Shown here piece after piece: positions 12,288 through 42,379 of a stretch of DNA of 64,000 nucleotides; within the stretch, counting starts at the first letter, position 1, and every line of letters starts with the position of its first letter. Under the pieces are notes generated by a model that was not told the DNA's origin, ran no database searches, and saw nothing but the letters and a program-made list of their open reading frames with translations. Origin of the DNA: Polyangia bacterium (GTDB taxonomy: Bacteria; Myxococcota_A; Polyangia; Polyangiales; JAUICN01); assembly GCA_030427835.1 (NCBI GenBank), contig JAUICN010000002.1, forward strand, positions 186,001-250,000, given 5' to 3'. The position numbers and the translations under genes are program-made.

Positions 12288-14138
12288 CTAGAGTAGGCGG
12301 GGGGTGCATCCTGTTTGGCTTACGCCGAAGGTGTGGAGCCTTGGTGTGGCGGATTGGGTGTCTAGACGTTCTAGGTCCACTTCGATTTCTAGGTATTGGG
12401 CCTGGGGGTCCAGGGGTGTACTGGATCCCAGGGGCCACGGTGACTCGGTGGGGGGTGAGGCTCCCAGGGGTATCCAGGGTTTTGTGGCGAGGTCTGCGCG
12501 GCTGGTGGAGGTTCGTACCCGAAAGGAGATGCGGGTGTGTTGGGGTAGGTTCGCGCTCCAGTGGAGTTCGCTCCAGGCGGCTCCGTCGCTAAGGCAAGAC
12601 TCGAAGGTGTGTCGGTAGTAGCCATGCGCATGGGAGGCCAGGGCCAGTTGCTGGCCGGTCATGTCAGAGTAGGTGTAGGGGCGATTGACGTAGTTCACTG
12701 AGGTGGTGTCGACTTTGTGTCGACCTCCGGTGCCAGGGGTTACCACGGCGGTATTCGTGTCCCGTGTGATGGACCACACTTTCCCTTGGGTATCCACCGC
12801 CACACCCTTGTTGAAGTTTCCTACGGTGTCCCTGAGATAGTTCTGTTTGGTGGCGGAATCCCCGTCGATCTCAAGGAGGCCTGAGGTTCCCGCTGCGGCC
12901 CAAATGCGGCCCTCGGAGTCCGCGGCAATACCGTGGGTTCTGGTGATGTTTTTCACGTAGGCAAAGCGGTTCTGCAGGGGGAGGCTTGGATCGTAGCGGG
13001 TCACGTGAGGGAACCCGCCCATCCATACCCGTTGTTTGTGATCCACGGTAATGCCGTAGGGGTTGCTGCTCGCCACGAGGATTTTTTCCATGATGCAAGC
13101 GTCGTTGCTTGCGCTGTTGTTGCCAGGTACTCCCGTTCCGCTGCAGATGTTGTCGTCGCAGGTGGTGTCGACGCATCTGTGTGTGTCCACGCGACCAAAA
13201 TAGGGTGCGCCCTCTTCTGCCATCCAAAGGTTCCCCTTCTTGTCGAGGGCAAGGCCGTAGGGCAATACGGGGGGGGTGACGGTAAGAAGGATCTTGCCGG
13301 TGTCGCCGTCTAGCTTGTGGAGCTTGCGCCCTCGGTAGTTGCCAACCCAAAGGACGCTGGTGTTTCCATCCAGCGTGGTGACGTGTTGGGCCGCGACGCT
13401 TCTGGAGCCGCCGCTGGAATCTGGAAGGGTGGTAGACCAGAGCACGCACTTGTCTCGCCCAAAGGGCAGGGGAGCGGTGCCCTTTTTGAATGTCTTGGTC
13501 TTCCCGTTGTGGTTCGGACAATCTTCACCAAGGGGAGATATTTTGGTGACGACCCTTGAGATCCCGCGGTGGCCCACGTAGGCGTTTCCGTACAAATCAA
13601 CGCTTGTGCGTGAGGGCTCAACCCCTCCCGTGTGGTAGCGGCCCTCCTCCTTCAGGGTTTTCGTATTGATCTTCGAGATGGTGTTTTCTGGGGTGTTTGT
13701 GATCCAAATGTACGAGTGGGTGGTTTTTGAGGTGTCGATGACCAGTGCGCCGTCCGAGGATGCAATGTTGACGTGATCGTTTGGGTTTCCACCAAGGTCG
13801 TAGGTATTGTTTGGAATGCAAGCGCCAACGGTGGTGATGCCGGGGCCGTTGGGGCACGTTAGTTCTGTGTCAGAAAAGCAGGTGCCTGCGATGCAGGCTC
13901 CGGTGGGGCAGGGTTTGATGTCACTGCAGGTGCTTGCGTTTGATCCGGTGTTGTCTGGATCCTGATCGCCCGTTCCGAATGGCGTGTGACTGGAACGCCC
14001 ACATTGCACAGAGGCCGCGACCAGGAGTAGCGGTGCAAGAATCACCCGTGTTGAAACAGGGCTGCCATGGGGGCTTCGGCAGGTGGATTTGGATGAACGA
14101 CGGGTAGAACTATTTTCGGCCGCTTGTACTGAATTCAC
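12288..14138 (-). CDS. surface lipoprotein, five-member paralogous family, copy 1
   Basis: 616 residues from the most distal start; a lipobox ASVQC (Cys46) follows a hydrophobic segment, so the true start may be internal. Layout shared by all five copies: a Cys stub (Cys71, 77, 82, 87, 95), then a beta-propeller-like body with SYIWITNTPENTISKINT, YGNAYVGHRG, KISPLGEDCP, LHKLDGDTGKILL, YGITVDHKQRVWMGG, VTRYDPS, HGIAADSEGRIWAA, GVAVDTQGKVWSI, and then a C-terminal domain starting at PYTYSDMTGQQLALASHA and ending RLHTFGVSQTGC. The repeats resemble NHL/SMP-30/Vgb-like propellers, but no catalytic set is evident. The most divergent copy in the C-terminal region. Probably outer-surface; function unknown. 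A small hairpin CCCGC/GCGGG (14147-14164) lies upstream. Confidence 0.85.
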   Translation of the reverse strand: MNSVQAAENSSTRRSSKSTCRSPHGSPVSTRVILAPLLLVAASVQCGRSSHTPFGTGDQDPDNTGSNASTCSDIKPCPTGACIAGTCFSDTELTCPNGPGITTVGACIPNNTYDLGGNPNDHVNIASSDGALVIDTSKTTHSYIWITNTPENTISKINTKTLKEEGRYHTGGVEPSRTSVDLYGNAYVGHRGISRVVTKISPLGEDCPNHNGKTKTFKKGTAPLPFGRDKCVLWSTTLPDSSGGSRSVAAQHVTTLDGNTSVLWVGNYRGRKLHKLDGDTGKILLTVTPPVLPYGLALDKKGNLWMAEEGAPYFGRVDTHRCVDTTCDDNICSGTGVPGNNSASNDACIMEKILVASSNPYGITVDHKQRVWMGGFPHVTRYDPSLPLQNRFAYVKNITRTHGIAADSEGRIWAAAGTSGLLEIDGDSATKQNYLRDTVGNFNKGVAVDTQGKVWSITRDTNTAVVTPGTGGRHKVDTTSVNYVNRPYTYSDMTGQQLALASHAHGYYRHTFESCLSDGAAWSELHWSANLPQHTRISFRVRTSTSRADLATKPWIPLGASPPTESPWPLGSSTPLDPQAQYLEIEVDLERLDTQSATPRLHTFGVSQTGCTPRLL

Positions 14139-14190
14139 GCGCGCCTCCCGCCTAGTCTAGCGGGTCACAGTTGCCCGTCGAGGCAGGTTG

Positions 14191-15954
14191 CTAGAGGACG
14201 GTATCTTCACAGCCGGTTTGGGTTACCCCGAACGTGTAGAGGCGTGGGGTAACGTCCTCTGAAGGGGCAGATTCTAGGCGTTGGAGTTTGGCTTCGATTT
14301 CGATGATGGCGGCGCTTGGGTCCTGGCTTGCGTCGGATAGGGCGGTGGCCAGGTCGCTTGGGGTTGTGAGGGTGGGGGTGGTTCCAAGGGTGACCCACGG
14401 GGCGCTGCTAAGTGCGCTTGCATCCGTTGCGGCACGGGCCCGAAAGCTTAGTTGGGTACCGGTGGGAACGTCGGCGCTCCAGGTAAGGTTTTCCCAGGCG
14501 GTGTTGGTGCCTGTGCACGTGTCGAAGGTGTGTCGGTAGTAGCCGTTCACTTGGGATGCCAATGCCAGTTGCTGCCCGGTCATGTCGGAATAGGTGTATG
14601 GGCCGTTGAGGAATCGTACGGATGTGTTGTCCACGGTGTAGTTGTTTTGAATGCCATCTTCCGTGGGTTCAACAACGGTTGCGAAAACAGACTGTTGGCT
14701 TATCGACCAAACTTTTCCTTGCGGATCGATGCCGATGCCCTTGTTTCCTCCTCCACCTGGTGTTCCTGGTACGTAGCCCACCGCGGTGGCGGTGTCCGCG
14801 TCGATTTCCAATAGCCCGTGGTGGGTGGCTGCCCCCCAGATACGACCCGCGCTGTCGGCGGCGATACCGTGCACAAAATCGGTGGTGATCGTGGTAAATC
14901 GACTGCCCATGGCAGCATTCGGATCGTAGCGAGTCACGTCTTCCCCACCGAGCCAAACCCTTTGTGCTTCGTCGACGGTGATGCCGTAGCTGGTAACGCC
15001 GGAAAGGGTGATCCGTTCCATAATGGCGCTGTCGTCATCGGTCAGGATGTTGTCGTCACAGGTGGTATCTGTACACATGTGGGTGTCGACCCTTCCAAAG
15101 ACGTTGGGTTCGCGAGTCGCGATCCAAAGGGTGCCGTTTTTGTCCAGTGCGAACCCGTAGGGGTCTACTGGCGAGTTGATTTCCAGAAGCTCTGTGCCGT
15201 CTTCTCCGTCGAGCTTGTGGAGGGTGCCGTCTTCCAGACAGCCGACCCAGACATAGGTGGCGATCTCTCCGTCCAGGCCTGTTACGTGTTGTACCGCCAT
15301 GGCGCGGGAGGTGCCGCCCGTCGTGGAAATGACGGTGCTCCAGAGCAAGCATTTGTCTTGGCCGTTGGGTAGGGGGATGTTGCTGTCGGAGGTCAATGTG
15401 CGCCCGCTGTGTTCTGGGCAGTCTTCTCCCAAGGGCGAGAACTTGCTGACGCTACGCGCTGTGCGATGGCCCACGTAGGCGTTTCCGTAGAGGTCAATGG
15501 TGGTTCGCGAAGGCGAAGTGCCTCCGGTTCTGTAGCGAGCCAACTCTTGCTTGGAGATGGTATCGACTTTGGAGATCGTGTGCTCGTTTGTGTTGGCGAT
15601 CCAAATGTAGCTGTGGGCCTGTTTGGTGGTGTCGAGTACGAGGGCGCCGTCGTCCGGGTCCACGTTGACACGATCGGTGGGGTTGTTGTCCAGGTCGTAG
15701 GTGTTGCCCAGGTCACAGGCGCCGATGGTGGTTGAAGTGTGGTCGCCGGCGCAGGTGGTTTCCACGGGCGTGGTGCAGGTGCCCGCCATACAGACGTTGC
15801 TTGCACATTGGTCATTGGAGGTGCAGGCCGATCCACCCGGCCCTCCGTCTGGGATCCCTCCGTCGCCGTCAGTTCCAGATTTTTGGGTGGACGGGCTGCC
15901 TCCGCAGGCGAGCAGCAGGGCGGTGAGTAAAACCGGAAACGACTTGGAGAACAT
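14191..15954 (-). CDS. surface lipoprotein, five-member paralogous family, copy 2
   Basis: 587 residues from the ATG at 15954 (the frame extends to a TTG at 15972, which is less likely). Signal peptide MFSKSFPVLLTALLLACGG with lipobox Cys. A short Gly/Ser linker leads to the Cys stub (CTSNDQCASNVCMAGTC) and then the propeller-like body: SYIWIANTNEHTISKVDT, YGNAYVGHRT, KFSPLGEDCP, YGITVDEAQRVWLGGEDVTRYDP, HGIAADSAGRIWGAATHHGLLEIDAD, GIGIDPQGKVWSISQQ, and the C-terminal module PYTYSDMTGQQLALASQVNGYYRHTF through LYTFGVTQTGC. An inverted repeat TTGGAA/TTCCAA (15982-16015) lies just upstream and may end transcription from copy 3. Confidence 0.87.
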   Translation of the reverse strand: MFSKSFPVLLTALLLACGGSPSTQKSGTDGDGGIPDGGPGGSACTSNDQCASNVCMAGTCTTPVETTCAGDHTSTTIGACDLGNTYDLDNNPTDRVNVDPDDGALVLDTTKQAHSYIWIANTNEHTISKVDTISKQELARYRTGGTSPSRTTIDLYGNAYVGHRTARSVSKFSPLGEDCPEHSGRTLTSDSNIPLPNGQDKCLLWSTVISTTGGTSRAMAVQHVTGLDGEIATYVWVGCLEDGTLHKLDGEDGTELLEINSPVDPYGFALDKNGTLWIATREPNVFGRVDTHMCTDTTCDDNILTDDDSAIMERITLSGVTSYGITVDEAQRVWLGGEDVTRYDPNAAMGSRFTTITTDFVHGIAADSAGRIWGAATHHGLLEIDADTATAVGYVPGTPGGGGNKGIGIDPQGKVWSISQQSVFATVVEPTEDGIQNNYTVDNTSVRFLNGPYTYSDMTGQQLALASQVNGYYRHTFDTCTGTNTAWENLTWSADVPTGTQLSFRARAATDASALSSAPWVTLGTTPTLTTPSDLATALSDASQDPSAAIIEIEAKLQRLESAPSEDVTPRLYTFGVTQTGCEDTVL

Positions 15955-16023
15955 ACCCAGGTATTCTACCAATTGATTGGGTTGGAATGCTGAGTTTTCG
16001 GCCGGCCGGTTCCAAATTTGTGG

Positions 16024-17901
16024 CTAGAGGACGAGTTGTTGGCAGCCGGATTGGGATATGCCGAAGGTGTAGAGTCTTGGCGTGACCTCCTGGGAGGGCG
16101 CCCCCTGGAGGCGTTCGAGGCGGGCTTCCAGTTCCAGGTGGGTTTGGGCAGGGTCTCCTCCGGCGTCCTGGATGAGGGTGTAGAGGTCTTCAGGTGACGC
16201 CAGGTTTGGGGTGGCGCCTACGGTGATCCAGGGCGCCGAGCTGAGTTCTGATGCGTCGTTGCCTAGCCGAATGCGGAAGCTCAGGCGTGTTCCATCGGGC
16301 ACATCGGCGGTCCATGAGAGGTTGGACCAGGCAGGGTCGCTTCCATCGCAGGAATCGAAGGTTTGGCGGTAGTAGCCCACCGCATGGGAGGCCAGTGCCA
16401 GCTGTTGGCCGGTCATGTCGGAGTAGGTGTAGGGCGCGTTGAGGTAGTTCACGGTTGTGGTGTCGGCCACGTGCATGCCCATGGCATCGGGTTCGATGAC
16501 AATGGCAGAGGTTTGTTGACTGATGGACCAGATTTTTCCCTGGGCGTCCACGGCGACGCCCTTGTTGGCTTTTCCGATCGTATCGGTGACGTAGCCTGTG
16601 TCGGTGGCGGTGTCTGCGTCGATTTCCATGATCCCGTTGGTGCCGTCCGCGGCCCATACACGGCCTTCGCTATCGGCCGCGATCCCGTGGACAAAACTGA
16701 TGCTCGAGATCTGGGTGATACGGCTGCCCAGTGCGGCACTGGGGTCGTAGCGGGTGACTGCGGGGTTGCCGCCAAACCATACCCGTTGTTTGCTGTCCAC
16801 CGTGACCCCGTAGGTGACGGTATTGGGCAGTGTGATAATTTCTTTGACGGCGGTGTCGTCGTCCGTTTTCACGACTTCTGCATCGCAGAGAGTGTCGTCG
16901 GTGCAAAGGTTGGTGTCTAGCCTGCCAAACTTGTTGGTCTCACGGGTGGCGATCCAAAGGGTACCGGAGTTGTCGAGTGCCAGTCCGTAGGGTTCCACGG
17001 GAGATTGGGTGTGTAGGATTTCTTCACCCGTGTCTGCGTTGATTTTGTACAGGCCCTTGTCTCCGTAGGTGCCCACCCATACGTAGGAATAGACGTCCCC
17101 GTCCAACCCGAACTCGTGCTGGGCGGCTACGCCCCGAACCACGCCTGTGTACTGAAAATCGTGGCGCCAAAGCACGCAGTCGTCCTCACCCCAGGCAAGA
17201 ACGTCCGCCTTTCCTGTGGAGGTGGTGATCATTCCGTCCTCGTTGGTGTCTGGGCAATTTTCTCCCTGGGGGGAAATCTTGGTAAGCGATGTGCCGCTTC
17301 GGTTCCCCACGTAGGCGTAGCCGAAGAGATCGATACTTGTTCTTGAGGGATCGTTGTATTCGTTGGCTGGTCCCGTACGGTAGCGGGCCAGTTCGAGCTT
17401 GGTTTCCGTGTCAATTTTGGAAATGGTGCTCTGTGCGGTGTTCGCGATCCAAATGTAGGTATCGGTTTGTTCGGTCACATCGAGCACCAGGGCCCCATCC
17501 TCGGGGTTCACCGCGACCTTGTCGGAGGGTTGGGTTGCGGTGTCAAAGGTGTTGCCCTCGTCACATTCACCCACGGTCGTGTGTTCGTCGTCATTGAGGC
17601 ACGTAGGATCCGCCGGTGCGGTGCAGACGCCCGCCATGCACTCGCCGCTGGCGCACTGGTCTCCGGTTTCGCATGAGGAGTCGGTGCCGCCACCGCCGGT
17701 TCCGCCACCACCCCCACCCCCACCACCGGTTCCGCCACCGCCACCGCCGCCCGTTCCGTCGGTATTGTTGGAGGCCGTGGTTGGGGATCCGCCGCCACAG
17801 GCACCGCTACCTAGGGTGAGAAGCCCACATGTAAGTACGATGCCGAACCGTTCCAGTCGTGTGTTTCGGAGGGGGATTGTTGGAAGAGTGGCGAGGGTCA
17901 T
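16024..17901 (-). CDS. surface lipoprotein, five-member paralogous family, copy 3
   Basis: 625 residues from the ATG at 17901. The open frame extends to 18012, but that part is occupied by two strong hairpins (17962-18005), so the internal start, which gives a normal lipoprotein leader ending GSGAC (Cys35), is preferred. A striking Gly-rich linker (encoded at about 17690-17765, long runs of glycine) separates the anchor from the Cys stub CETGDQCASGECMAGVC. The body and C-terminal module follow copy 2 closely: TYIWIANTAQSTISKIDT, FGYAYVGNRSG, KINADTGEEIL, YGVTVDSKQRVWFGG, HGIAADSEGRVWAADGTNGIMEIDAD, GVAVDAQGKIWSISQ, PYTYSDMTGQQLALASHAVGYYRQTF, LYTFGISQSGC. Confidence 0.87.
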   Translation of the reverse strand: MTLATLPTIPLRNTRLERFGIVLTCGLLTLGSGACGGGSPTTASNNTDGTGGGGGGGTGGGGGGGGGTGGGGTDSSCETGDQCASGECMAGVCTAPADPTCLNDDEHTTVGECDEGNTFDTATQPSDKVAVNPEDGALVLDVTEQTDTYIWIANTAQSTISKIDTETKLELARYRTGPANEYNDPSRTSIDLFGYAYVGNRSGTSLTKISPQGENCPDTNEDGMITTSTGKADVLAWGEDDCVLWRHDFQYTGVVRGVAAQHEFGLDGDVYSYVWVGTYGDKGLYKINADTGEEILHTQSPVEPYGLALDNSGTLWIATRETNKFGRLDTNLCTDDTLCDAEVVKTDDDTAVKEIITLPNTVTYGVTVDSKQRVWFGGNPAVTRYDPSAALGSRITQISSISFVHGIAADSEGRVWAADGTNGIMEIDADTATDTGYVTDTIGKANKGVAVDAQGKIWSISQQTSAIVIEPDAMGMHVADTTTVNYLNAPYTYSDMTGQQLALASHAVGYYRQTFDSCDGSDPAWSNLSWTADVPDGTRLSFRIRLGNDASELSSAPWITVGATPNLASPEDLYTLIQDAGGDPAQTHLELEARLERLQGAPSQEVTPRLYTFGISQSGCQQLVL

Positions 17902-17961
17902 GGGGAGATATGGAGCAAGTTCTGTGCCTTCGATTTCTGGTCTCATGGGTCGGTATGGGAT

Positions 17962-18005
17962 CCCATTTTTTCGGAAAAATGGGAACGGGGAGCGCTCTGC
18001 GTTCC
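17962..18005 (-). terminator. double hairpin, probable terminator of copy 4
   Basis: Read on the minus strand, a hairpin GGAACG-[CAGAGCGCTCCC]-CGTTCC (18005-17982) is followed by CATTTTT, a U-tract, and then a second 9-bp stem CCCATTTTT/AAAAATGGG (17962-17983) around a TCGG-type loop. It lies about 105 bases after the stop of copy 4. A related hairpin with a swapped C-G pair ends the ATPase/thioesterase operon (20050-20075). Confidence 0.55.
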
Positions 18006-18110
18006 AAACCATGGAACATGAAATGCTCTCAGGTCATCACTTGTGATGCGCTCCGGGTAGGCCCGTGTGTGTTTCCGTGTGCGCTTCTGTATTGGATCCT
18101 TGGGGAGGAG

Positions 18111-19979
18111 CTAGAGCACGATCTCACCACATCCCGTTTGTTGTACACCAAAGGTGTAGAGGCGTGGTGTGGTGTTGTTGTCCGTAGCTTCGGGGAGACG
18201 CTCGAGGCGTGCTTCAAGTTGGAGTAGGGCTTTGGTTGGGTCGAGGCCTGCGTCCGCCAGGGCGGTGGCCACGTCGGTGGGGGAGGCCAGGGTGGGCGTG
18301 GCCCCAACCGCAATCCATGGTGCAATGGAGAGGTCGCTTGCGTCGGTTCCCACCCGAATCCGAAAACTCAGGCGGGTTCCCACGGGTACGTCTGCGGTCC
18401 AGGTGAGGTTGTCCCAGGTGGCGTTCTCTTTCTCACAGGTAGAGAAGGTGTGTCGGTAGTATCCCTGCGCGTGGGAGGCGAAGGCCAGCTGCTGGCCGGT
18501 CATGTCCGAATAGGTGTAGGGGCCATGCAGATCTTTCACGGCCTTGTATTTGTACCCGTGATTTCCGTCGGCGGAGGGAGTCACCACGGCGGCGGAGTTT
18601 CGGGTGCCGATGGACCACACTTTTCCCTGGGCGTCGATTCCAATGCCCTTGTTTGTGGTGCTGTCTCCTAGGGCCCCCACGATTTGTGTGACTGTCATGG
18701 AGTCCGCGTCCACTTCCACGAGCCCGTATTCCTTTGCAGCCCCCCAGATGCGTCCTTCGGCATCTGCGGCGATGCCGTGGATCATCCCGTCGATGCTTGC
18801 CACAAGCCTTTCTTCGTAGGGGATGTCGTTCTTGTCGATATACTCGATTCGGTCGTTGATGGGAGCTGCCGGGTCGTAACGTGTGATGGAATCTCCCCCA
18901 AGCCACACCCGCTGTTTGTAGTCCACCGTAATGCCGTAGGTCTTTCTGGGCATGGTGATCGCTTCCATGGCACAGCCGTCTTCGGCGGAGCATTTCTTGT
19001 TGTCACAGGTTTTGTCCACACACAGTCGGGTGTCGACGCGCCCAAGCTGAAGCACTTTGGCGCTCGCAATCCAGAGAGTACCGGACTGATCCATGGCAAA
19101 CCCATAGGTGGATACCGGTGCATTGACCTTGAGCAGTTCTACGCCCGTGTCTCCATTGATTTTGTGGATGGTTCCGTTCTCCAGGTTGCCCACCCAAACG
19201 TCCGAGGTGAGCGCGCCGTCCAGGCCCCACTCATTGAAGGTCGCGATGGCCCGGGAACTACCCCCTTGGCCCTTGATCTTGACCGACCAGAGCATGCATT
19301 CGTCGTCTCCAAAGGGAAGCACTCCGTTTTCTTCAGAATAGGTCTCGATCTCTCCGTTTGAGTTTTTGTCGACGCACTGGTCGAGGGAGGGCGCAAACTT
19401 GGTGACGTGTCTGGAATACCGGTGCCCGACGACAGCCTCTCCGAGTAGGTTCACGCTTGTGCGCGAGGGTGCGGTGCCGCCTGTTTTGTAACGTGCGACT
19501 TCTTCGTAGGTTTCGGTGTCAATTTTGGAGATGGTATTTTCGCCGGTGTTGGCGATCCAAATGTAGCTGTGGGTTTGCTGGGTGGTGTCCAACACAAGTG
19601 CACCGTCTGAGGGATGAACAGAGAGTTTGTCCGAGGGGTTGCTGTCGGGAGCAAAGGTATTGCCGTTGTCGCAGGCGCCCACAGTGGTAGTGGTGTCATC
19701 GTTGGGGCAGTTGAGGTCTGCCGGTGCAGTACAAAGCCCTGCAATGCATTCGTGGCTTGCACATTCGCTGTCTGCTGCGCATTGGGTCTGTTCAGGCGGA
19801 GCGGTGCCTCCTGGCGGGGTGATGTTGTCTGGGGTTGTGGAGGTGCTCGTGTTTGTTCCGGTGGGCCCGGTACCGGCGCAGGCCACCAACACCGTAGGGA
19901 GCATGAACGCCCACATGCAAGCCTGTGTGAGGCCAGGTCGTCGTGGGTGGGAAATGGGAGGAAATGAACGATCTCGCAC
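18111..19979 (-). CDS. surface lipoprotein, five-member paralogous family, copy 4
   Basis: 622 residues from a GTG at 19979; an internal ATG at 19916 (MWAFMLPTVLVAC) is an equally good start. Lipobox LVAC (Cys34). The Cys stub CAADSECASHECIAGLC precedes the propeller-like body: SYIWIANTGENTISKIDT, LGEAVVGHRYSRHVTKFAPS, IHKINGDTGVELL, YGITVDYKQRVWLGGDSITRYDP, HGIAADAEGRIWGAAKEYGLVEVDAD, GIGIDAQGKVWSIG, and the module PYTYSDMTGQQLAFASHAQGYYRHTF to LYTFGVQQTGC. Compared with the other copies it has an insertion near residue 345 (NDIPYEERLVASIDG). Function unknown; very likely surface exposed. Confidence 0.87.
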   Translation of the reverse strand: MRDRSFPPISHPRRPGLTQACMWAFMLPTVLVACAGTGPTGTNTSTSTTPDNITPPGGTAPPEQTQCAADSECASHECIAGLCTAPADLNCPNDDTTTTVGACDNGNTFAPDSNPSDKLSVHPSDGALVLDTTQQTHSYIWIANTGENTISKIDTETYEEVARYKTGGTAPSRTSVNLLGEAVVGHRYSRHVTKFAPSLDQCVDKNSNGEIETYSEENGVLPFGDDECMLWSVKIKGQGGSSRAIATFNEWGLDGALTSDVWVGNLENGTIHKINGDTGVELLKVNAPVSTYGFAMDQSGTLWIASAKVLQLGRVDTRLCVDKTCDNKKCSAEDGCAMEAITMPRKTYGITVDYKQRVWLGGDSITRYDPAAPINDRIEYIDKNDIPYEERLVASIDGMIHGIAADAEGRIWGAAKEYGLVEVDADSMTVTQIVGALGDSTTNKGIGIDAQGKVWSIGTRNSAAVVTPSADGNHGYKYKAVKDLHGPYTYSDMTGQQLAFASHAQGYYRHTFSTCEKENATWDNLTWTADVPVGTRLSFRIRVGTDASDLSIAPWIAVGATPTLASPTDVATALADAGLDPTKALLQLEARLERLPEATDNNTTPRLYTFGVQQTGCGEIVL

Positions 19980-33360: not shown

Positions 33361-34260
33361 CTATTCGTTGGTCGCTACGGTAAGGTTGGGGTACTTGATC
33401 TTGAGTTCGTTGCCCTCAGGGAGCTCGTTCCACCAGTTGGCCACTTCACTGCCGCTCCCTTCTGCGGGTACGATGATGTTTGTCAATAATGGAAAGGTAC
33501 CGTCGGTGAGGAGGTTGTTGAGACGTTCTGTGAGCTCTACTGGAGATGTTTCGCTCACGTTTACACCGGTGGGGTGAGGCGTGATTTGGAGTGTGGCTAG
33601 GCGGTTGAGCCCCAGCAGGTGTCCGAAATGCTGTTCTGTTGTGACTATCCCCAGGGATACCTTGGCTACCGTTTCCATGGATTTGGCAGATGCGCCTGTC
33701 ATGGCTCCGTAGATAGGCAGGTTGAACCCGTTGCCCAGGATTCCTGTGCCACCAGCGTTGTTGTTGGTGCAACTGGTCACTTGGTTTTCGGAAAGGAAGC
33801 CTACGTTGGCTACTTGGGTAAACTCCAGGAGGGACCAGGTGCCTTCTTCTTGGCTGGGCATCCGGAAGATGATGCCCTGGAGTGTTTGTGGATTTTCACT
33901 GATGAACTCGAGATCGAAGGTGTTGTCGATGGGTGTGGCATAGGTGTGGTAGGCGCGACCTGCCAGAGGTTGCTCCAACTCTTGGTCTAGTTTCCCGGTG
34001 GTACTTGCGTTCCATAGCTGTTCCCAGAAGGTCTCGAGACTGAGTTCCTGATCCTGGCTTGCGGCCTTTTTTGCTACGTTTGCCAACTCGACGCCTAGCT
34101 TCTGGCAATCGTTTAGGGATGGAGCGTACTCAGTGGTTTTTGCGCTTGAGTCCTCTGTGGAGGGGCTTGCGCAGGCTTGGGTGAGGGTGAGTAAGGATGT
34201 TGCGAGTCCGAGGAGGGTTGCTGCTGCCCAGCGAGTGTAGTCTGTGTGGTTCAAAGTCAT
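33361..34260 (-). CDS. lipoprotein, unknown function
   Basis: 299 residues. The leader MTLNHTDYTRWAAATLLGLA continues to a lipobox LTQAC (Cys30). The mature protein starts with Ser/Thr-rich sequence, then a helical part (SLNDCQKLGVELANVAKKAA), and later shows TWSLLEFTQVANVGFLSENQVTSC and ITPHPTGVNVSETSPVELTERLNNLL. Two cysteines (52 and about 167) may form a disulfide. No family recognised. Base composition looks less GC-rich than its neighbours. It is convergent with the PEGA gene; structured repeats lie between them. Confidence 0.75.
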   Translation of the reverse strand: MTLNHTDYTRWAAATLLGLATSLLTLTQACASPSTEDSSAKTTEYAPSLNDCQKLGVELANVAKKAASQDQELSLETFWEQLWNASTTGKLDQELEQPLAGRAYHTYATPIDNTFDLEFISENPQTLQGIIFRMPSQEEGTWSLLEFTQVANVGFLSENQVTSCTNNNAGGTGILGNGFNLPIYGAMTGASAKSMETVAKVSLGIVTTEQHFGHLLGLNRLATLQITPHPTGVNVSETSPVELTERLNNLLTDGTFPLLTNIIVPAEGSGSEVANWWNELPEGNELKIKYPNLTVATNE

Positions 34261-34453
34261 TCTGTTTTCCTTGGTTTTGGGGGGACCATTGTGAAGACGG
34301 AGTGCACAACCTGTGCCATGCCATCGAGACGCCAGAGACGGTTGCTATTCTCCCAGAATGGTGGTGTTTGACGCTCGGGAGTCCCCACTGGATGGAGTCT
34401 TTTAGCCCCAGAAAGGGAGCGTTGGTTTACACGCTTGGCTGTGGTGGATTTAG

Positions 34454-36295
34454 TTAGTGGGAGGTGCGGAGGCTGGTGAGTAGGTCTCGGAGTTCTTGGA
34501 TGTCTTTTTGGTATTGGGGAGCGGCGTTTTGTTCTGCCGTGGGGTGGATGGTTTGCTCGATGAGCGTGATGGCTTTTTCAACGGCAGAGTTGAAGTGGGG
34601 GTGTTTGCATGGGCAGTCGTCCAGGAGTGGTGGCTCGCATTCGCACAGGGGCATACGAGATGGGCATTGTGGCACCTTTACACTGGAGGGAACGACTGCA
34701 AACGAGGCCGTTGTCACCATGGATTGACCCATGGAGGACTGGGAGGTGCTGTTCCCGAAGTTGAGCATGATGGTGGGTGGGCGAACCCATTGGGCCAGCA
34801 GTTTGTATTTGGCGAAGGGGCCCTCTTGCCATGCAGGGGTGCCGGTGGGGGGATCGTAGGACTGTTGTGGATCAATCCATATGTCCCGCGATTGGATTCT
34901 AGGTTGTGATCCGTAGCTGAAGTCTTCACAGGTAACAGACTTCCATGGGCTGAGATGAACGGTGGTACCGGTCAAACGTACGGTGCTACTTCCCAGCCCG
35001 TAGGGCTCCCCATGGGAGAGTTCGTGGGCTTTTCCTGGCAACGGAGGCGGCTCCGGATGGGTGGGCGCTCCGAGGTGCAGTGTTTTTCCAGGGGTTGGGG
35101 TGACCCCCCTTGCCCGTTTCAGGGCATGGGAAAGCAACCAACGGCTGGCGGTGAGATTGGCTGCCACCTCTTCACCTAACCCCCAGAAGCGGTCGTATTG
35201 ATGGTAGCCGTGAAGCACCGCCCACACTGTTTCGCTGTTGTCTGCAAAGGCAGCCCCGCTGTCTGAGGTGAGGGTCATATCCTGGCCGCCCAGCGCAAGG
35301 TGCTCCCGGTAACGTGTGTAGCCCTGCACGGCGTGGGAGGAGGGTGAGCCGTCCCGGGGGCGACCCCAGCCAGTGAACGTAAGGCCCTGGTTGATGAGGT
35401 GCTCATCTTCCTTTGGCCATTTGAGGCGTGGTGTTGAGGGTGGAAACGTTCCGTGCACAAAAAGCAGCGCAAGGTCAGCTTCGATCGCTCCGTCGTGTTC
35501 GTATTCTTCGTTGCCGTAGAACGGGTGGGGAATGGTGATGGCCACGGGGAGAGCTTTTTCATCCCTCACGTGTCCAACCCCAATTCGAAGGTCGTGGTTT
35601 TCATCCAGGCAATGGCCTGCCGTGAGAACCACCTCTCCGAGTTTAAAATCAGGATTTCCTGTCGGATGCTGGAACGCTTCCATGTCGATCAATGCACCGG
35701 AACAGGTAAGTACTGAAGTCTCGTCGTGATCTTCCAGCAGGTACACCCCTGGGCCTTCACTGTTGTTGGGGGTTCGGCCCTGCAAACCCACCTGTTGGTG
35801 CAAGATCTTCCAGATCTCGTCCGCCGCCCAACCTAGTCTCATGGCGATGCTCTCGTCCATGAAGGTGAGTTCCTCTTCCATCCGTTGATCGGCGCGATCG
35901 TGCTGCCATTTTCTGAACTGGGCTTCTGCTGACGCGGCGTCGTTTCTAAAGTCCTTGCAGGCGGGCCAACGGTGTTCCTCCCCCTCCCAAACGGCGTACT
36001 TCTGGGTGCCGGGATCCCAATGGATGCCCAGGCTATGCTGTTTTCCTTTGGCGTGTTTCAGGGTCCATTGCATGGCCCGTACCCAGGTGGCATTGGGGCA
36101 GTTGGCGTAGGTGTGGAGTGAGTGATGGTTGTTGTAGGCCCCGCGCCACCCTCCCCCGAAGTCCACGATGGTGCGTGGATTGCTCCCGCTGCTCTTCGGT
36201 TGCCCAGGCGCCCTGAGCGGAGGCGTACACGCTGCGACGGAGAGCGCTCCGGCTGCCAGCAAACCTAGACGTTGGATCCATGGGTGGATGGACAT
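34454..36295 (-). CDS. trypsin-like serine protease lipoprotein
   Basis: 613 residues from the ATG at 36295; the frame is open to 36379, but only the internal start gives a normal leader MSIHPWIQRLGLLAAGALS with lipobox SVAAC (Cys23). A unique N-terminal domain (about 40-180) is followed by a chymotrypsin-fold region: VVLTAGHCLDE (His228), EADLALLFVHG (Asp274), GWGRPRDG, TLTSDSGAAF (Ser346, an SDSGAA variant of GDSGGP). A further C-terminal domain (about 400-585) ends with a Cys-rich patch LCECEPPLLDDCPC and the tail QELRDLLTSLRTSH. All three catalytic residues are present, so it should be an active, lipid-anchored endopeptidase. The next gene is a full-length paralogue lacking the triad. Confidence 0.88.
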   Translation of the reverse strand: MSIHPWIQRLGLLAAGALSVAACTPPLRAPGQPKSSGSNPRTIVDFGGGWRGAYNNHHSLHTYANCPNATWVRAMQWTLKHAKGKQHSLGIHWDPGTQKYAVWEGEEHRWPACKDFRNDAASAEAQFRKWQHDRADQRMEEELTFMDESIAMRLGWAADEIWKILHQQVGLQGRTPNNSEGPGVYLLEDHDETSVLTCSGALIDMEAFQHPTGNPDFKLGEVVLTAGHCLDENHDLRIGVGHVRDEKALPVAITIPHPFYGNEEYEHDGAIEADLALLFVHGTFPPSTPRLKWPKEDEHLINQGLTFTGWGRPRDGSPSSHAVQGYTRYREHLALGGQDMTLTSDSGAAFADNSETVWAVLHGYHQYDRFWGLGEEVAANLTASRWLLSHALKRARGVTPTPGKTLHLGAPTHPEPPPLPGKAHELSHGEPYGLGSSTVRLTGTTVHLSPWKSVTCEDFSYGSQPRIQSRDIWIDPQQSYDPPTGTPAWQEGPFAKYKLLAQWVRPPTIMLNFGNSTSQSSMGQSMVTTASFAVVPSSVKVPQCPSRMPLCECEPPLLDDCPCKHPHFNSAVEKAITLIEQTIHPTAEQNAAPQYQKDIQELRDLLTSLRTSH

Positions 36296-36427
36296 GGCTG
36301 CCGACAAGCATGCTCTGTGCCACTTGAACTTGCGCTGGAAACATACCCTCGCGCTAACCCGTGAGGGTGCGATTCTCAATCGTGGTGACAGGTGGAGTTG
36401 CAGGTCAATCGTCCTGTTTTTCTTGTC

Positions 36428-38272
36428 TCAATTCTGTTTGGGCACATGCCTGAGGCTTGTGAGTAGGTCCTGCAGTTGGCTGCGTTGTGTTTGGGAGATT
36501 GGAGTGATTCCATTCGTTGCATAGGCCTCAATGAGCATAAGAACTTCGTTGACGGCCTGCTCCATGCAGCCGTACTTGCACGCACAGGGGTTATGGGATC
36601 CGCGGTCGAAAATGTTTTCGTGTTCGTTGCACTCAGCCAGCTGAGTGATGCACTGACTGCCTGGGGTTCTACCGATGCGAACGGTAAAGAGATCGTGACC
36701 TTGGCCTGTGGGCTGGTTGATGCTTTCAAAGAAGGGCAGTGGTGGGCGGGCAAACTGTGCCTGTAGGAGAATGGACAGCGGGGGTATGCGTGTCAGTCCA
36801 GGAACGAGGCTAATTTGCTTGTAGAATGCTGTGACTGTGGAGGCTGCTGATGTTGGTTTGCACTGGTGGGGAGTCCATGGGCTGACCGTCACCTGCTGTT
36901 TTCCAACGGTGATGGCGTGGGTACCGAGGGGCCAGAACTCGGCATCCCTGTCGTTCATCTGTGGTGAACCCGGTGGGGTGTTTTCTGGAAGGCTGGCGAG
37001 AGTGAGGAACTGGGTGTAATTTTTGTTCTGGGATTCGGAGCTCGCTATTTCGGCCACCTGTCGAAGGGCGTGGCGTAGGAATAGTTGGTTGAACCGTAGG
37101 GGCACAAAGGCTTGGCCGGGCCAGGTGGCGGCACTGTAGATTCCCCAGAGCACGTGGTTCTCATCACCGAGGGGTGCGCCGCGATCCCAGGTGGAAAGTG
37201 CTGCGCCGTAGGTGTCTAGGGAAATGACCTCTCGGAATGCGGTGTGGTAGGCAACCCTCCAGGAGGATAGGAGTCCGTTTTCAGGAAAGCCGTAGCCTGC
37301 GCCGCGGAGGGTTTCTCCCTCAGTGTCCCGCTGTTCGGGCCAATGGTAGCCGGTGGCTTTGGGGACGGTGGCATTCTTTGTGAGTAGTAGGGCAACGTTT
37401 TCCCCGTGATTCGCTCTGTATTTGAGAGATTCGGTTCCTTTCCAATGGGGGTGAGTCACCGCCACCTCTACGGGAGTGGCGGGGTGGTTCAGCATGGGGC
37501 CCAGCCCGATTTGGAAACGAGCGGTGCCTTCCTGTTCGCTGTCCGTTTCCAAGCATTGCGCTGTGGTGACCGCGGCCTGCGCAAACGGAGGCGGTGGAAC
37601 CATGTTGAGGAAACTCACTGTGCACCGCAGTCGGTTGACGGTGTCTTCTTTCGTTGCTCCCGTAAACGTTTGGGCCAGGTAGCCCATATGCCCGTTTGCG
37701 GACTCGAGCCTTCTCCCTTCGGTTTGAACGGGGCGTGTGAGATCAAGCCAGACTTGTTCTACCGCAGCGTTCCAATCCTGCATTACAAGGACCGGGCGCG
37801 CGCCGCCTAATTCTGCATGGGCGTCTCCTAGCTGGGCGTGCAGGAGGCTGCCGAGCAGGTTCTTGGCGTGTTCGCTCGACAACCGCATTTGCTGACATTT
37901 GGCCGTGTGCCCGGAGAGAGACGTGGTCACTGCGAAGCCGATTGTCGATCCGTCAGTAAGCACACCTCGATGCACCGCCACGCGGAAACGGTGCGTGTGT
38001 AGTTGTGGGTGTCGCACCGTGAAGCGCACGGTGCGGGCCAATTTCCCGCGTTCACAGTAGGGGTAGGCGTCGATGAGAAAACGGGCATCGTACTGGATAG
38101 ACCAGCCCTGACCGAGTGGGATCTTCCCGATGGGGTTTTCTCCCTTGGTAGGAAGCGCCGATGTTGTGGGTTGGGGCGTCGCCTGGCGAGGGGAGGCGAT
38201 GCACCCCAGGGCGAGGGTACCGGCGAGTACAATAGGGGCAAACGGAGATGTCTTGAAGAACGGGGTGGGCAC
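36428..38272 (-). CDS. pseudoprotease paralogue of the trypsin-like lipoprotein
   Basis: 614 residues, lipobox ALGC (Cys24). Aligned by eye along its whole length with the neighbouring protease: N-terminal GGW/QGW...WTLKH/RFTVRH, the core, the SPW-x3-C segment (HLSPWKSVTC versus TVSPWTPHQC), and the tail RSQLQDLLTSLRHVPKQN versus QELRDLLTSLRTSH. At the three catalytic positions it has Gln239 for His (AVTTAQCLE), Asn292 for Asp (ENVALLLTK) and Arg364 for Ser (TWDRGAPLG). It is therefore a catalytically dead homologue that is otherwise intact and under no sign of decay, suggesting a binding, inhibitory or partner role. Gap to the protease gene 132 bases; same strand. Confidence 0.85.
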   Translation of the reverse strand: MPTPFFKTSPFAPIVLAGTLALGCIASPRQATPQPTTSALPTKGENPIGKIPLGQGWSIQYDARFLIDAYPYCERGKLARTVRFTVRHPQLHTHRFRVAVHRGVLTDGSTIGFAVTTSLSGHTAKCQQMRLSSEHAKNLLGSLLHAQLGDAHAELGGARPVLVMQDWNAAVEQVWLDLTRPVQTEGRRLESANGHMGYLAQTFTGATKEDTVNRLRCTVSFLNMVPPPPFAQAAVTTAQCLETDSEQEGTARFQIGLGPMLNHPATPVEVAVTHPHWKGTESLKYRANHGENVALLLTKNATVPKATGYHWPEQRDTEGETLRGAGYGFPENGLLSSWRVAYHTAFREVISLDTYGAALSTWDRGAPLGDENHVLWGIYSAATWPGQAFVPLRFNQLFLRHALRQVAEIASSESQNKNYTQFLTLASLPENTPPGSPQMNDRDAEFWPLGTHAITVGKQQVTVSPWTPHQCKPTSAASTVTAFYKQISLVPGLTRIPPLSILLQAQFARPPLPFFESINQPTGQGHDLFTVRIGRTPGSQCITQLAECNEHENIFDRGSHNPCACKYGCMEQAVNEVLMLIEAYATNGITPISQTQRSQLQDLLTSLRHVPKQN

Positions 38273-38367
38273 TACGTGAGCCCTAGTAGCAAAAGTTGGA
38301 CCAGGGGGTCGGCCTTTGGGAGCACGTCCTGTGCTTGCGGGTTGTCTGGATCGGTTCGATGCCGCAA

Positions 38368-39603
38368 CTACAGGGGTTCGATGAAGGCGCCCACGTCTTC
38401 GCCGCTTTGTACAAAGAAGGCCTGGCCAAAGGTGTCGAGCAGCTCCAGGGTTTTGTCCAGGTCTTCGCGGGTGTGGCCGCGGGTTACGTTGAGTCGCAGT
38501 CGTTCCTGGCCCTCTTTGACGCTCGGGTAGGTAAGCGGTACCAGGTGCACACCGCTTTCTAGTAGCGCCAGGTGCATGAACAATGCCTTGCGTTCATCGC
38601 GGCACATGATTGGCATGATGTGGCTGTTGCTGTCGCCGAGATCAAATCCAAGTTCGACCAGGGAAGAGCGCATGTAGTGCGCGTTGTCGTGCAGTTCGCC
38701 AACCAGGGTTTCCCCGTCCTTCTCTAGCATGTCGAGAATGGTAGACGCGGCTGCGACTATCGGTACGGGTAGGCTTGCGCTGAACAAAAAGGAACGGGCC
38801 CGGTGCTTGATGTGATCGACGACATCCTTGTTCCCAAAAAGCAGGCCGCCAATACCGCCAAGGGATTTGGAGAAGGTGCTGATGACAATGGGGATGCGGC
38901 CTTGCAGCCCGTACTTCTCGATGATCCCGGTGCCGCGCTTTCCGAGCGTGCCCGTGCCGTGGGCGTCGTCGCAAATGATCGGGGCGTCGTAGCGATCCGC
39001 CACTTCTAGCAGTTCTTGGATGTTGGCTTCGTCGCCATCCAGGGAATAGATGCCCTCCAGTAGAACGATGGCGTTCTTGCGCTGCTTGCTTTTGAGGCAA
39101 CGCTCAAGGGATCGGGCGCTGTTGTGGTTAAAGAACCGTACCTCTGGTGCCTGGCCGGGTGTGCCTGCGGCGAGAAAGGTGCCGTCCAAAATGCAGGCGT
39201 GGGAGAGGTTGTCGAGAATGAGGGTGGTGTCCTTGTCGGCCAGGGACATGAGTGTTCCCACCATGGCTTGGTAGCCCGTGGTGAAAATGGCGCAGGCCTC
39301 GAACCCCATCCAGTTTGCCAGGCGTTCTTCCAGCTCGATGTGGGCGACGGTGGTGGCCTGCACCCGCGAGGAAGAAAGCCCACAGGCGTATTGGTCCACG
39401 GCCTTCTTGGACGCTTCTTTCACGAGGGGGTGGGTGGTGAGGCCCAGGTAGTCGTTGGAGCTAAAGTTTACAATGGGCTTGCCAGCAATGCTGGTGTGAA
39501 GCCCGCCGGACTCAAAGGCGTGAAAGTAGGGGTACACCTGCTTTTCCTTCGCCTTACGTACGCGATCCAGTTCCTGGTACGCCTTGTCGTCGATCCAACT
39601 CAT
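38368..39603 (-). CDS. alpha-oxoamine synthase, serine-palmitoyltransferase-like
   Basis: 411-residue PLP enzyme of the alpha-oxoamine synthase family, which condenses an amino acid with an acyl thioester and releases CO2. The PLP lysine is Lys246 in STFSKSLGGIGG; the TFSK form is typical of serine palmitoyltransferase rather than BioF or KBL (TLGKAxG). CDDAHGTG (211-218) and DNLSHACILDG (His135) supply the other PLP contacts. It is immediately 3' of a dead ketosynthase and an active ketosynthase on the same strand, and two ACP genes lie divergently, so the acyl donor may be an ACP-bound chain, as described for bacterial sphingolipid synthesis. The amino acid substrate cannot be told. Confidence 0.88.
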   Translation of the reverse strand: MSWIDDKAYQELDRVRKAKEKQVYPYFHAFESGGLHTSIAGKPIVNFSSNDYLGLTTHPLVKEASKKAVDQYACGLSSSRVQATTVAHIELEERLANWMGFEACAIFTTGYQAMVGTLMSLADKDTTLILDNLSHACILDGTFLAAGTPGQAPEVRFFNHNSARSLERCLKSKQRKNAIVLLEGIYSLDGDEANIQELLEVADRYDAPIICDDAHGTGTLGKRGTGIIEKYGLQGRIPIVISTFSKSLGGIGGLLFGNKDVVDHIKHRARSFLFSASLPVPIVAAASTILDMLEKDGETLVGELHDNAHYMRSSLVELGFDLGDSNSHIMPIMCRDERKALFMHLALLESGVHLVPLTYPSVKEGQERLRLNVTRGHTREDLDKTLELLDTFGQAFFVQSGEDVGAFIEPL

Positions 39604-39716
39604 GGGGCCGCTGTTCTGTCCCCCGAACGCCCCCTTGTCGAGCTCCCAGCATGGTGGCTGGGGGCCTGTGACAACCGGTCACATGTGAGCTCAAATCACA
39701 GTAAGGAAGGGCGTTC

Positions 39717-40883
39717 CTAGGCGCTGCGGGTCTGCATCACGATGGCGCTGGTGTTGCCGTAGAAACCGGTGGAGAGAATGAGGGCGTTGCAGCCCCTAGG
39801 GGGGCTGGCGCTCAGGTGGGCGAGTGCGGTGGCCATGGCCAGGGCGCCGGAGGCTCCGAAGGTTTCTCCCAGGTGATCCTTGGGTGAAATACGGGTTGTG
39901 GGGCAAACCCCTAGAAGTTGGTCCAGGGCCTGATCTTCGGCTTGATCAATGTAGTTGAGGCCACTTTTGGAGGTGCACACGAGATCGAGCTGGTCTGGCG
40001 TGATGCCCGCCTCGCAAAGTGCGGCGCGTGCTGCGCGAAGCACCGTGTCCGCGGAGGCAAACACGAGGGGGTTTGGGCTGTGGGTGAGGGCTGGCCCCAG
40101 GGCGGTTCCGTAGCCGGTAATCCACGCCAGGGGGGGCCTGTTGTTGGCGTGGTTGCCTGTGTCGGCGTCCACAAAGAAGAGTGCGATCCCTTCTCCTAGG
40201 GTGAGGCCTTCGCCTGGGGTGGATGTTCGCAGGATTCCAGTGGCCTGGGCTGCGCCCTCTAGGGCTTCCCCAAGGACTTCTGCTCCTCCCACAAGGAACG
40301 CCCGCGCGCGGCCCTGGGCGATGTGTGTGCGGGCGTTGAGCACGGCGTCGAGGGCACCCGGGTTGCCGCTCACCACCGTGGTGTTGGGCCCACGCAGGGC
40401 ATGGCGAATGCTGACGTAGCCTGCGGGTGTGGTGATGATCGTGTTGGGGAAGCGTGCGGGGTTGAGGTGGCGTGGGTTTTCCTCGCAGGTTCTGCTGGCC
40501 CCTGCGATCACATCCTGGGATCCGTAACTGGTGGAAATGCTCACACCCACCTGTTCTGGTGTCCAGGGGTGGGTCCATTGAAATGCCACAGCACCTTGTG
40601 CGGGGTTGGTGCCGTGGGTTTGCACTCCCGATCCGACCATGGCCTGCTCGGCACCGACCAGCAGCAGTTGTGTAAGGCGATCAAAGTTGCGGTTGCCCTT
40701 TTTTCCCAAATAGGGAGTGACGTCGAAGTCCTCAATGACCTTCTTCTCGATGGTGGGGGGTGGCAGTTCTGTGGATGCCCCACGTTGGCTCCAGTGTGCA
40801 TTCCAGGACTGCACGGTGATGCCCACCGGGCTCACCACACCGTAGCTGCGAATGGCAAGGGGAGTGGTTGTACTAGCCCACAT
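39717..40883 (-). CDS. chain-length-factor-like ketosynthase partner, catalytically inactive
   Basis: 388 residues from the ATG at 40883, supported by GGAGATC upstream; the open frame extends to 40994 but that part is antisense-type sequence overlapping the ketosynthase. It has the thiolase fold of ketosynthases (SYGVVSPVGITVQSW, GVSISTSYGSQDVIAGA, PAGYVSIRHALRGPNTTVVSG, GASGALAMATALAHL), but the catalytic Cys position is Asn174 (SGNPGALDAV), the first His is replaced (CTSKSGLN) and the second is Glu (DHLGETFG). This is the pattern of a KS-beta/chain length factor that pairs with an active KS. Its start overlaps the stop of the ketosynthase by 11 bases. Confidence 0.85.
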   Translation of the reverse strand: MWASTTTPLAIRSYGVVSPVGITVQSWNAHWSQRGASTELPPPTIEKKVIEDFDVTPYLGKKGNRNFDRLTQLLLVGAEQAMVGSGVQTHGTNPAQGAVAFQWTHPWTPEQVGVSISTSYGSQDVIAGASRTCEENPRHLNPARFPNTIITTPAGYVSIRHALRGPNTTVVSGNPGALDAVLNARTHIAQGRARAFLVGGAEVLGEALEGAAQATGILRTSTPGEGLTLGEGIALFFVDADTGNHANNRPPLAWITGYGTALGPALTHSPNPLVFASADTVLRAARAALCEAGITPDQLDLVCTSKSGLNYIDQAEDQALDQLLGVCPTTRISPKDHLGETFGASGALAMATALAHLSASPPRGCNALILSTGFYGNTSAIVMQTRSA

Positions 40884-42183
40884 GATGATCTCCCCTTGGG
40901 TGGTTTTCCTTGGGGTGATTGTCCTCGGGGTGATCGTCACCGAAGGTGGCCAGGGGGCGATCTGAAACGGGGGGGAGAACATCGGGCGCCGCAAAGGTCA
41001 CCACGGCGTTGTAGCCCCCAAAGGCAAGGGCGTTGTTGAGGACGACTTTGGGGTGGAGCCGTTGCGCTTGGTTGGCGATCACACGCACGTCGCACTCTGG
41101 GCCCTTTTGCCCGTGGTTGATGGTGGGTGGAACCCAGCCCGTGCGCACCGACTGTACACAGGCGACCGCTTCGAGCGCACTTGCCGCACCCATGCAATGC
41201 CCGATCATGCTCTTGACGCTTGTGACCGCCACGTCGTGTGCACCAAAGACCTTGCGAATCACTTGGCTCTCCACCGGGTCGTTGGTGGGTGTGCCTGTAC
41301 CGTGTGCGTTGACATGATCCACGTCGCTGGGTGTGAGCCCACTGGTGCGAATGGCGTTTCCCATGGCGCGGGCATTGCCTGCACCTTCGGGGTTCGGGTG
41401 GGTCACGTGGTGGCCGTCGCAGGCCAGGCCGTACCCCCCCACTTCAGCCAGGGGCTCTGCCCCGCGGGCGCGCATGTGGGATTCGCTTTCGAGCACAAGA
41501 ATGGCGGCCCCTTCTCCCACAAGAATACCGTCCCGGTCCTTGTCGAAGGGGCGGCAGGTGTTCTTCGCGACCGCACCAAGCCTTGCAAAGCCCGCCAGTT
41601 CGGCCCGCTCCAATACCTCGGCCGCTCCGGTGATGGCCATGTCGACCATTCCCTGGCGGATTTGGTCGGCGGAGTACCCGATGGCGTAGTTTCCGGCGGC
41701 GCATGCCGCGGGCAGGGTCATGGCGGGGCCCTGGGCGCCCACGGTGCGAGCCGCGTGAATGGAAAGTAGGCTTCCCCCGTATTGGAGGATCTTTTGGGGT
41801 GCGACGGCCTGGGCGCCCTCTGTGATCCATGCGGTATGCAGCTGTGCAAGTAGGTTGCCCTCACCCATGGTGGTGCCGAGAAACGCGGCCGTTCGCTCGG
41901 GTGAGGGCAGGGACTTGAGGCGGGCCATGTCGGCGGCCATGCGCGTGGCGGCAACCACCATGGCGGAGGCGCGCCCCATGGTTCGGGCTTCGGTGCCCCT
42001 GAGATGGTCCCGAACGTGGAATCCCTTGGCTTCACAGCCGATGTCACGGCCAATCCCGGTGGTATCAAATGCGGTGATGGGTGCGGCCCCGCTTTCACCG
42101 CCCTTGAGGCCGCTCCAATAGGTGGAAAGCCCGGTGCCCAGGGGCGAAACGACCCCCATGCCGGTTATGAACACCCGTTGCAT
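40873..42183 (-). CDS. beta-ketoacyl-ACP synthase (FabF-like KS-alpha)
   Basis: 436 residues from the ATG at 42183 (MQRVFITGMGVVSPLGTGLS); the frame is open upstream to 42267 but not KS-like there. Active-site triad complete: Cys161 in TLPAACAAGNYAIG, His294 in VNAHGTGTP, His329 in SVKSMIGHCMGAA with Lys324. It catalyses decarboxylative condensation of malonyl-ACP with an acyl chain. The C-terminus carries an odd His/Asp-rich tail (DHPEDNHPKENHPRGDHHVG) that lies in the overlap with the next gene's start. It forms a KS-alpha/KS-beta pair with the following gene, next to two ACPs and an oxoamine synthase. Confidence 0.9.
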   Translation of the reverse strand: MQRVFITGMGVVSPLGTGLSTYWSGLKGGESGAAPITAFDTTGIGRDIGCEAKGFHVRDHLRGTEARTMGRASAMVVAATRMAADMARLKSLPSPERTAAFLGTTMGEGNLLAQLHTAWITEGAQAVAPQKILQYGGSLLSIHAARTVGAQGPAMTLPAACAAGNYAIGYSADQIRQGMVDMAITGAAEVLERAELAGFARLGAVAKNTCRPFDKDRDGILVGEGAAILVLESESHMRARGAEPLAEVGGYGLACDGHHVTHPNPEGAGNARAMGNAIRTSGLTPSDVDHVNAHGTGTPTNDPVESQVIRKVFGAHDVAVTSVKSMIGHCMGAASALEAVACVQSVRTGWVPPTINHGQKGPECDVRVIANQAQRLHPKVVLNNALAFGGYNAVVTFAAPDVLPPVSDRPLATFGDDHPEDNHPKENHPRGDHHVG

Positions 42184-42379
42184 GGCTCCGGAGTAGCGCG
42201 GAACCCCCAGTCGGCAAGGGCAGTGGCCTGGGGTTTTAGGCCATATTACTGTGACCTGGCGGCACACCTTGACACTACCGTAGGCCGACCTTAACTTTGG
42301 CCGCTCACACGCACGGGGTGGATATGGGCTTTGTTGTCGGCCACCCCAGCCGTCCCTTACCTCAAAGGTCTTTCACCCC

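Follow-up and report, generated by a model that had tools for sequence, protein, structure and literature searches.

In a 64,000-nucleotide stretch of DNA from an uncultured Polyangia-like myxococcote (referred to below as the window), two adjacent genes on the minus strand encode predicted lipoproteins, A and B, which are paralogous over their full lengths. Protein A carries the His/Asp/Ser triad of trypsin-like (S1) serine proteases, and in protein B all three catalytic positions are occupied by other residues. We examined the two genes together with their paralogues and relatives, and the features of the locus are as follows, with chymotrypsin positions in brackets.

34454..36295, minus strand: protein A, predicted lipoprotein of 613 aa, S1 (trypsin-like), His/Asp/Ser intact (open reading frame, lipobox start, Pfam, triad)
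36428..38272, minus strand: protein B, predicted lipoprotein of 614 aa, full-length pseudoprotease paralogue (open reading frame, BLASTP to A, leave-two-out profile)
35612..35614, minus strand: A His228 codon (His57), from alignment and profile
35474..35476, minus strand: A Asp274 codon (Asp102), from alignment and profile
35258..35260, minus strand: A Ser346 codon (Ser195), from alignment and profile
37556..37558, minus strand: B Gln239 codon (His57 position), from alignment and profile
37397..37399, minus strand: B Asn292 codon (Asp102 position), from alignment and profile
37181..37183, minus strand: B Arg364 codon (Ser195 position, WDRGAP), from alignment and profile
35096..35749, minus strand: trypsin-like core of A, about residues 183-400 (profile match to chymotrypsin 1eq9)
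37040..37690, minus strand: degenerate trypsin-like core of B, about residues 195-411 (aligned columns of the family alignment; dead-member profile against granzyme M)
34457..35002, minus strand: Cys-rich C-terminal domain of A (a domain found in this genome only)
36431..36934, minus strand: Cys-rich C-terminal domain of B (C-domain searches)

Both frames are open over these coordinates, with A lying downstream of B on the same strand after a gap of 132 bp. The frame of A is open up to 36379, and the ATG at 36295 is the better start, placing the lipobox Cys at residue 23; with this start the residue numbering of both proteins in the initial annotation is exact. The full-length alignment of the two proteins which that annotation had reported was reproduced by BLASTP, with 23% identity over 633 columns (124 bits, E 5e-34). 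The Pfam Trypsin family (PF00089) matches A at 36.5 bits against a cut-off of 20.6, and B matched no Pfam family above its cut-off.

The triad columns hold His228, Asp274 and Ser346 in A and Gln239, Asn292 and Arg364 in B. A profile built from the other 16 members of the family described below scored 275 bits for A and 224 bits for B, with shuffled sequences at 2.6 bits or less, and placed the triad on the same residues as the pairwise alignment; since neither A nor B contributed to this profile, the assignment is independent of that alignment and confirms the residues originally proposed for both proteins. No other GxSxG, [GDN]SG or SGG motif occurs in B. Protein A carries a Ser (Ser344) at the Gly193 position, within an altered SDSGAA motif, while the two other members with a complete triad, C17_1 and C17_2 (the C17 pair), have the regular GDSG motif. 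Proteolytic activity of A is thus a prediction, the weakest among the three putatively active members, and its full activity is uncertain.

The genome containing the window (3.32 Mb in 30 contigs, 98.3% complete) was searched using A, B and a 12-row profile as queries, which yielded 18 full-length paralogous lipoproteins including A and B, so that the genome holds at least 18. The closest relatives of a helicase encoded in the window indicate a Polyangia-like myxococcote. They share an architecture of lipobox, N-terminal domain, S1 core and Cys-rich C-terminal domain, and all 18 have Cys at the lipobox column. Fourteen adjoin another member. The arrays are A and B, a pair on C17, a further pair on C1, a third pair at 366-370 kb of C18 (C18b) and, on C15, six genes interrupted by one unrelated gene. 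Pfam Trypsin is recognised in three of the 18. A complete triad is likewise found in three, A and the tandem C17 pair, and the nucleophilic Ser is lost in the remaining 15, here termed dead members. His57 is present in 5/18 and Asp102 in 8/18, and the Cys42-Cys58 pair is kept in 17/18, including A and B, and Asp194 in 16/18. Protein B and 14 further proteins are therefore pseudoproteases by definition, that is, protease homologues without the catalytic residues, and they form the majority of a multicopy family. The initial annotation was right that B has lost the triad, but B is not a lone pseudoprotease beside an active sister, as the family of 18 contains 14 others.

Several additional genes in these regions deserve mention. 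In the stretches examined, truncated copies were seen at C25 8922-9473 and C18b 10266-10862, and birth and death of copies therefore seems to continue. An S1-like lipoprotein of 501 aa at L199 6064-7569, which lacks the C-domain and carries LTAAHV and NDSG motifs, is a possible outlying active relative. Two paralogous genes at L011 3974-5464 and L032 11465-12889 (496 and 474 aa, 23% identity, E 8e-10) lie on the opposite strand in and beside the C15 array.

Homology of the family to solved S1 folds was evident from profile comparisons. The family profile matched chymotrypsin 1eq9 (E 1.5e-10, profile positions 227-378), and a profile built exclusively from the 15 dead members matched granzyme M (E 3.6e-6) and MamO (E 4.9e-4). 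As a control on the catalytic columns, the same profile was applied to the S1 proteins retrieved from relatives in these searches. HMMER gave 18 matches with default filters and 31 rows with filters off and a looser limit; removal of repeats of one gene, and of two L029 rows that are family members, left 23 distinct proteins of relatives and two ordinary trypsins of the own genome. Of six ordinary S1 loci in the genome itself, four (L023, L024, L026 and L028) had no profile match and are not counted. The triad columns read H/D/S in 22/23 relatives and in both own trypsins, and the difference between 3/18 intact triads in the family and 22/23 in the relatives is highly significant (Fisher p 1.8e-7). 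Misalignment as the source of the triad losses was rejected on the basis of this column control and of the leave-out profiles. By these comparisons the dead members are homologues of S1 proteases and their catalytic losses are real, because the same columns read H/D/S in relatives and the dead-only profile finds trypsin folds. Across the 15 dead members, variability at the Ser195 column exceeds that of 92% of the 188 core columns, with 10 different residues represented; the Gly that follows it is present in 15/15 and the preceding Asp194 in 13/15. Variability at the columns for His57 and Asp102 is not out of the ordinary (shares 0.41 and 0.27). The exception among the 23 relatives (L084), from another genome of the order, retains His and Asp but carries Glu at the Ser195 position, and appears to be an independent single pseudoprotease.

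Protein B shows several signs of having been maintained. Its frame of 614 codons is intact, while 2000 shuffles of its bases had a mean of 18.6 in-frame stops, with at least 7 in every case. It keeps 10 of the 11 cysteines of A, the missing one not being shared by half of the family. Identity between A and B at the three codon positions is 0.378/0.459/0.328, similar to that between the active members A and C17_1 (0.393/0.432/0.330), and the value for position 2 exceeds that of unrelated codons (0.26-0.28). In relative-rate comparisons summed over 14 outgroups, which are not independent of one another, 693 changes were unique to A and 754 to B; 13 of the 14 outgroups fell below the 5% limit, with C1_2 above it (chi2 4.97). 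The frame, cysteines, codon positions and rate, judged against paralogues, therefore argue for constraint on B. Orthologues of A or B for an estimate of dN/dS (the ratio of nonsynonymous to synonymous substitution rates) were not found, and a further contig search with A gave no match. That B is a pseudoprotease retained for a non-catalytic role is, on this evidence, well supported. The initial annotation had named inhibition, scaffold or receptor as such roles; that catalysis was lost and the protein nevertheless kept is supported by the frame, cysteines and rate, and a role as partner of the neighbouring protease is unsupported, as discussed below.

The family tree is unrooted and its long branches limit the trust that can be placed in it. 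Calculated without the three catalytic columns, it joins B to the C17 pair (support 94/88), with A next (95/90) and then C2 (95/96). The same grouping of B and the C17 pair appears with lower support in trees of the N- and C-domains (81/72) and of the core (78/52). Independent support for grouping B with the active members comes from a Cys pair that is present in the other 14 members and missing only in A, B, C17_1 and C17_2. The best reading of these patterns would be at least two separate catalytic losses; a single clade of the three actives was not rejected (approximately unbiased (AU) test, p 0.105).

Outside this genome we found no full-length relative among 182 other genomes of the order and 376 others sampled in the phylum, where searches gave matches to the trypsin core at most; candidates were scored as the best 7 per genome for the order, 3 for the phylum and 11 for the class, such that a weak full-length relative could be missed. 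The Cys-rich C-domain occurs at 25 places in the own genome and in 0/316 other genomes of the class, the class search with this domain likewise giving at most matches to the trypsin core. The family thus seems restricted to its own family-level lineage, which is represented by this genome alone among the relatives compared. Taken together, the results define a bacterial, apparently lineage-specific family of predicted S1 lipoproteins in which most members are inactivated.

The Cys-rich C-domain is also common to a second lipoprotein group that has no visible trypsin core (hhalign probability 98.5%, E 2.6e-15) and for which no Pfam match was obtained. Its members at L057 1420-3171, L059 274-2094, L060 250-2127 and L062 1447-3099 have an unrelated middle part, suggestive of one shell with two alternative inserts. 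One member of this group is apparently split across contig ends (C26:7606-8874 and C13:14545-15147) by an assembly break.

We consider it probable that a surface protease fold was converted to a binding scaffold in the course of a lineage-specific expansion of the family, and that B is a binding protein in its own right rather than a dedicated regulator of A. The founder would have been a protease, from which repeated tandem duplication may have generated the 18 or more full-length copies. Catalytic residues would have been replaced in 15 of these while the barrel disulfide and the oxyanion-loop frame were kept, and B, A and the C17 pair would go back to a common ancestor that was active. The dead barrels, that of B included, would then function at the cell surface as modules for binding and not for catalysis, and A and the C17 pair would presumably still be proteases. 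We infer the display of a binding module from the combination of constant shell, lipid anchor and dead barrel, as in MamO and the mite paralogues considered below. Homology, triad loss, intact and constrained frames, expansion and absence from the relatives searched can be read from the sequences themselves.

Several points weigh against this interpretation. Constraint on B is judged from paralogues, as the orthologue search found none; surface display is deduced from the lipoboxes; and neither a ligand nor a shared neighbour gene points to a function, the recurrent neighbours seen around the family loci being kinase-like genes together with a small number of further paralogue pairs. Even A may be weak or inactive, given the Ser at its Gly193 position. 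Given the AU result for one active clade, there may also have been a single loss. Finally, AlphaFold2 predictions from two-row alignments gave no usable fold, with a mean pLDDT (predicted local distance difference test) of 36.6 for A and 36.1 for B.

The strongest alternative, although we regard it as unlikely, is that B is a dedicated partner of A, maintained because it binds A on the membrane as inhibitor, activator or scaffold, in the manner in which MamO promotes MamE-dependent proteolysis. The two genes adjoin on the same strand, both products are predicted lipoproteins, and they are each other's best paralogous match; MamE/MamO (PMC4794232) and the pseudoprotease CspC (PMC6636752) provide precedents. 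However, when three active labels were placed at random on the arrays (with the two C15 members that flank a single other gene treated as neighbours), an active/dead neighbour pair arose in 97.5% of placings. The C17 locus has two actives and no dead neighbour, the C15, C18b and C1 arrays are wholly dead, and in the tree it is the C17 pair, not A, that lies closest to B. The adjacency of A and B therefore says little, because such neighbours are expected by chance and the other arrays are all-active or all-dead. There is one active/dead neighbour pair in the genome, and thus no recurrent pairing of the MamE/MamO kind. The earlier proposal tying the role of B to the neighbouring protease is consequently not supported. 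Ordinary S1 proteins near three family loci were also considered as partners and rejected; by eye they are HtrA-type or Cys-rich and they lie about 10 kb or more away.

A more specific version of the binding hypothesis, which we put forward only tentatively and think improbable, is that the site that once was catalytic now forms a recognition pocket diversified among the copies, such that the dead members constitute a repertoire of at least 15 surface receptors or decoys for recognition of prey, kin or inhibitors. In this reading the conserved frame around the former site, with D-x-G in the oxyanion loop and T-x-A-x-C in the His loop, would present residues that differ between most copies.

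It is very unlikely that the dead members are altered enzymes, whether with another residue performing catalysis at that site or with a different kind of activity. The Ser195 position does carry Thr in 2/15, Cys in 1/15 and Asp or Glu in 4/15, but for the Cys case (C15_1) the leave-one-out profile puts Gly at that position, His57 persists in only 2/15 dead members, where the Asp102 position is Asn and the Ser195 position either Asp or Glu, 10 different residues are spread over the Ser195 position, and B has Arg there, accompanied by Gln and Asn at the other two. Least probable of all is that B and most of the family are decaying, functionless genes or recent pseudogenes that still look open, since, despite the existence of the two truncated copies, 15/15 dead members have full-length open frames and B, at 22-23% identity to A, keeps the family cysteines, position-2 conservation and an A-like rate.

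Promoter and terminator scans of 34200-38500 gave nothing notable above chance. Upstream on the same strand, at 38368-42267, lie genes whose products by eye resemble a KAPA-synthase-type aminotransferase and two ketoacyl synthases, possibly a lipid or polyketide cluster. At 12288-19979, on the minus strand, four tandem predicted lipoproteins of about 600 aa, alike by eye, form a further paralogue array; they have in common IWIANT..ISKID stretches, TYSDMTGQQLA and a PRLYTFG..QTGC-like tail.

The reading of B as a binding protein within an expanded, mostly inactivated family can be compared with several known systems. MamO is a trypsin-like pseudoprotease that was repurposed for metal binding, and pseudoproteases of this type, which have non-catalytic roles, are reported to have arisen repeatedly and independently (PMC4794232). 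MamO and LimO of magnetotactic bacteria resemble the present family in having a bacterial trypsin-like fold that lost catalysis and was kept beside an active paralogue, and the MamO structure 5hm9 is matched by the family profile (E 0.0024) and by the dead-member profile (E 4.9e-4). They differ in being HtrA-type with a transporter domain and in occurring in few copies in a defined magnetosome island, whereas the family described here consists of lipoproteins with other flanking domains and has 15 dead copies.

CspC of Clostridioides difficile is subtilisin-like, not trypsin-like, and differs further in being present in few copies, in spores. It is a bacterial pseudoprotease that has been proposed to act in signalling (PMC6636752).

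The likeness to mite proteins is one of kind, the expansion of inactivated paralogues, and not of descent. The SMIPPs of mites are a multicopy family of inactivated protease paralogues. They are eukaryotic and act on a host, whereas the present proteins are bacterial lipoproteins with additional N- and C-domains and no known target. Inhibition of complement by SMIPPs in vitro has been reported (PMC5553898).

A survey from 2008 counted 42 inactive proteins among 966 prokaryotic serine proteases from 91 genomes, in five families (PMC2605481). Like the dead members, these serine protease homologues (SPHs) are without catalytic residues, and measured against the 42/966 of the survey, the 15/18 in the family of a single genome is unusual. 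In the open-licence literature we found no report of a bacterial, mostly inactivated S1 family. Single pseudoproteases in bacteria and inactivated protease families in mites were already known; a bacterial family that is inactivated in most of its members (15/18), and for which the searches gave no member outside its own lineage, would constitute a compact natural experiment in the conversion of an enzyme fold to a binding scaffold, in which the putatively active relatives in the same genome allow direct comparison with the dead members.

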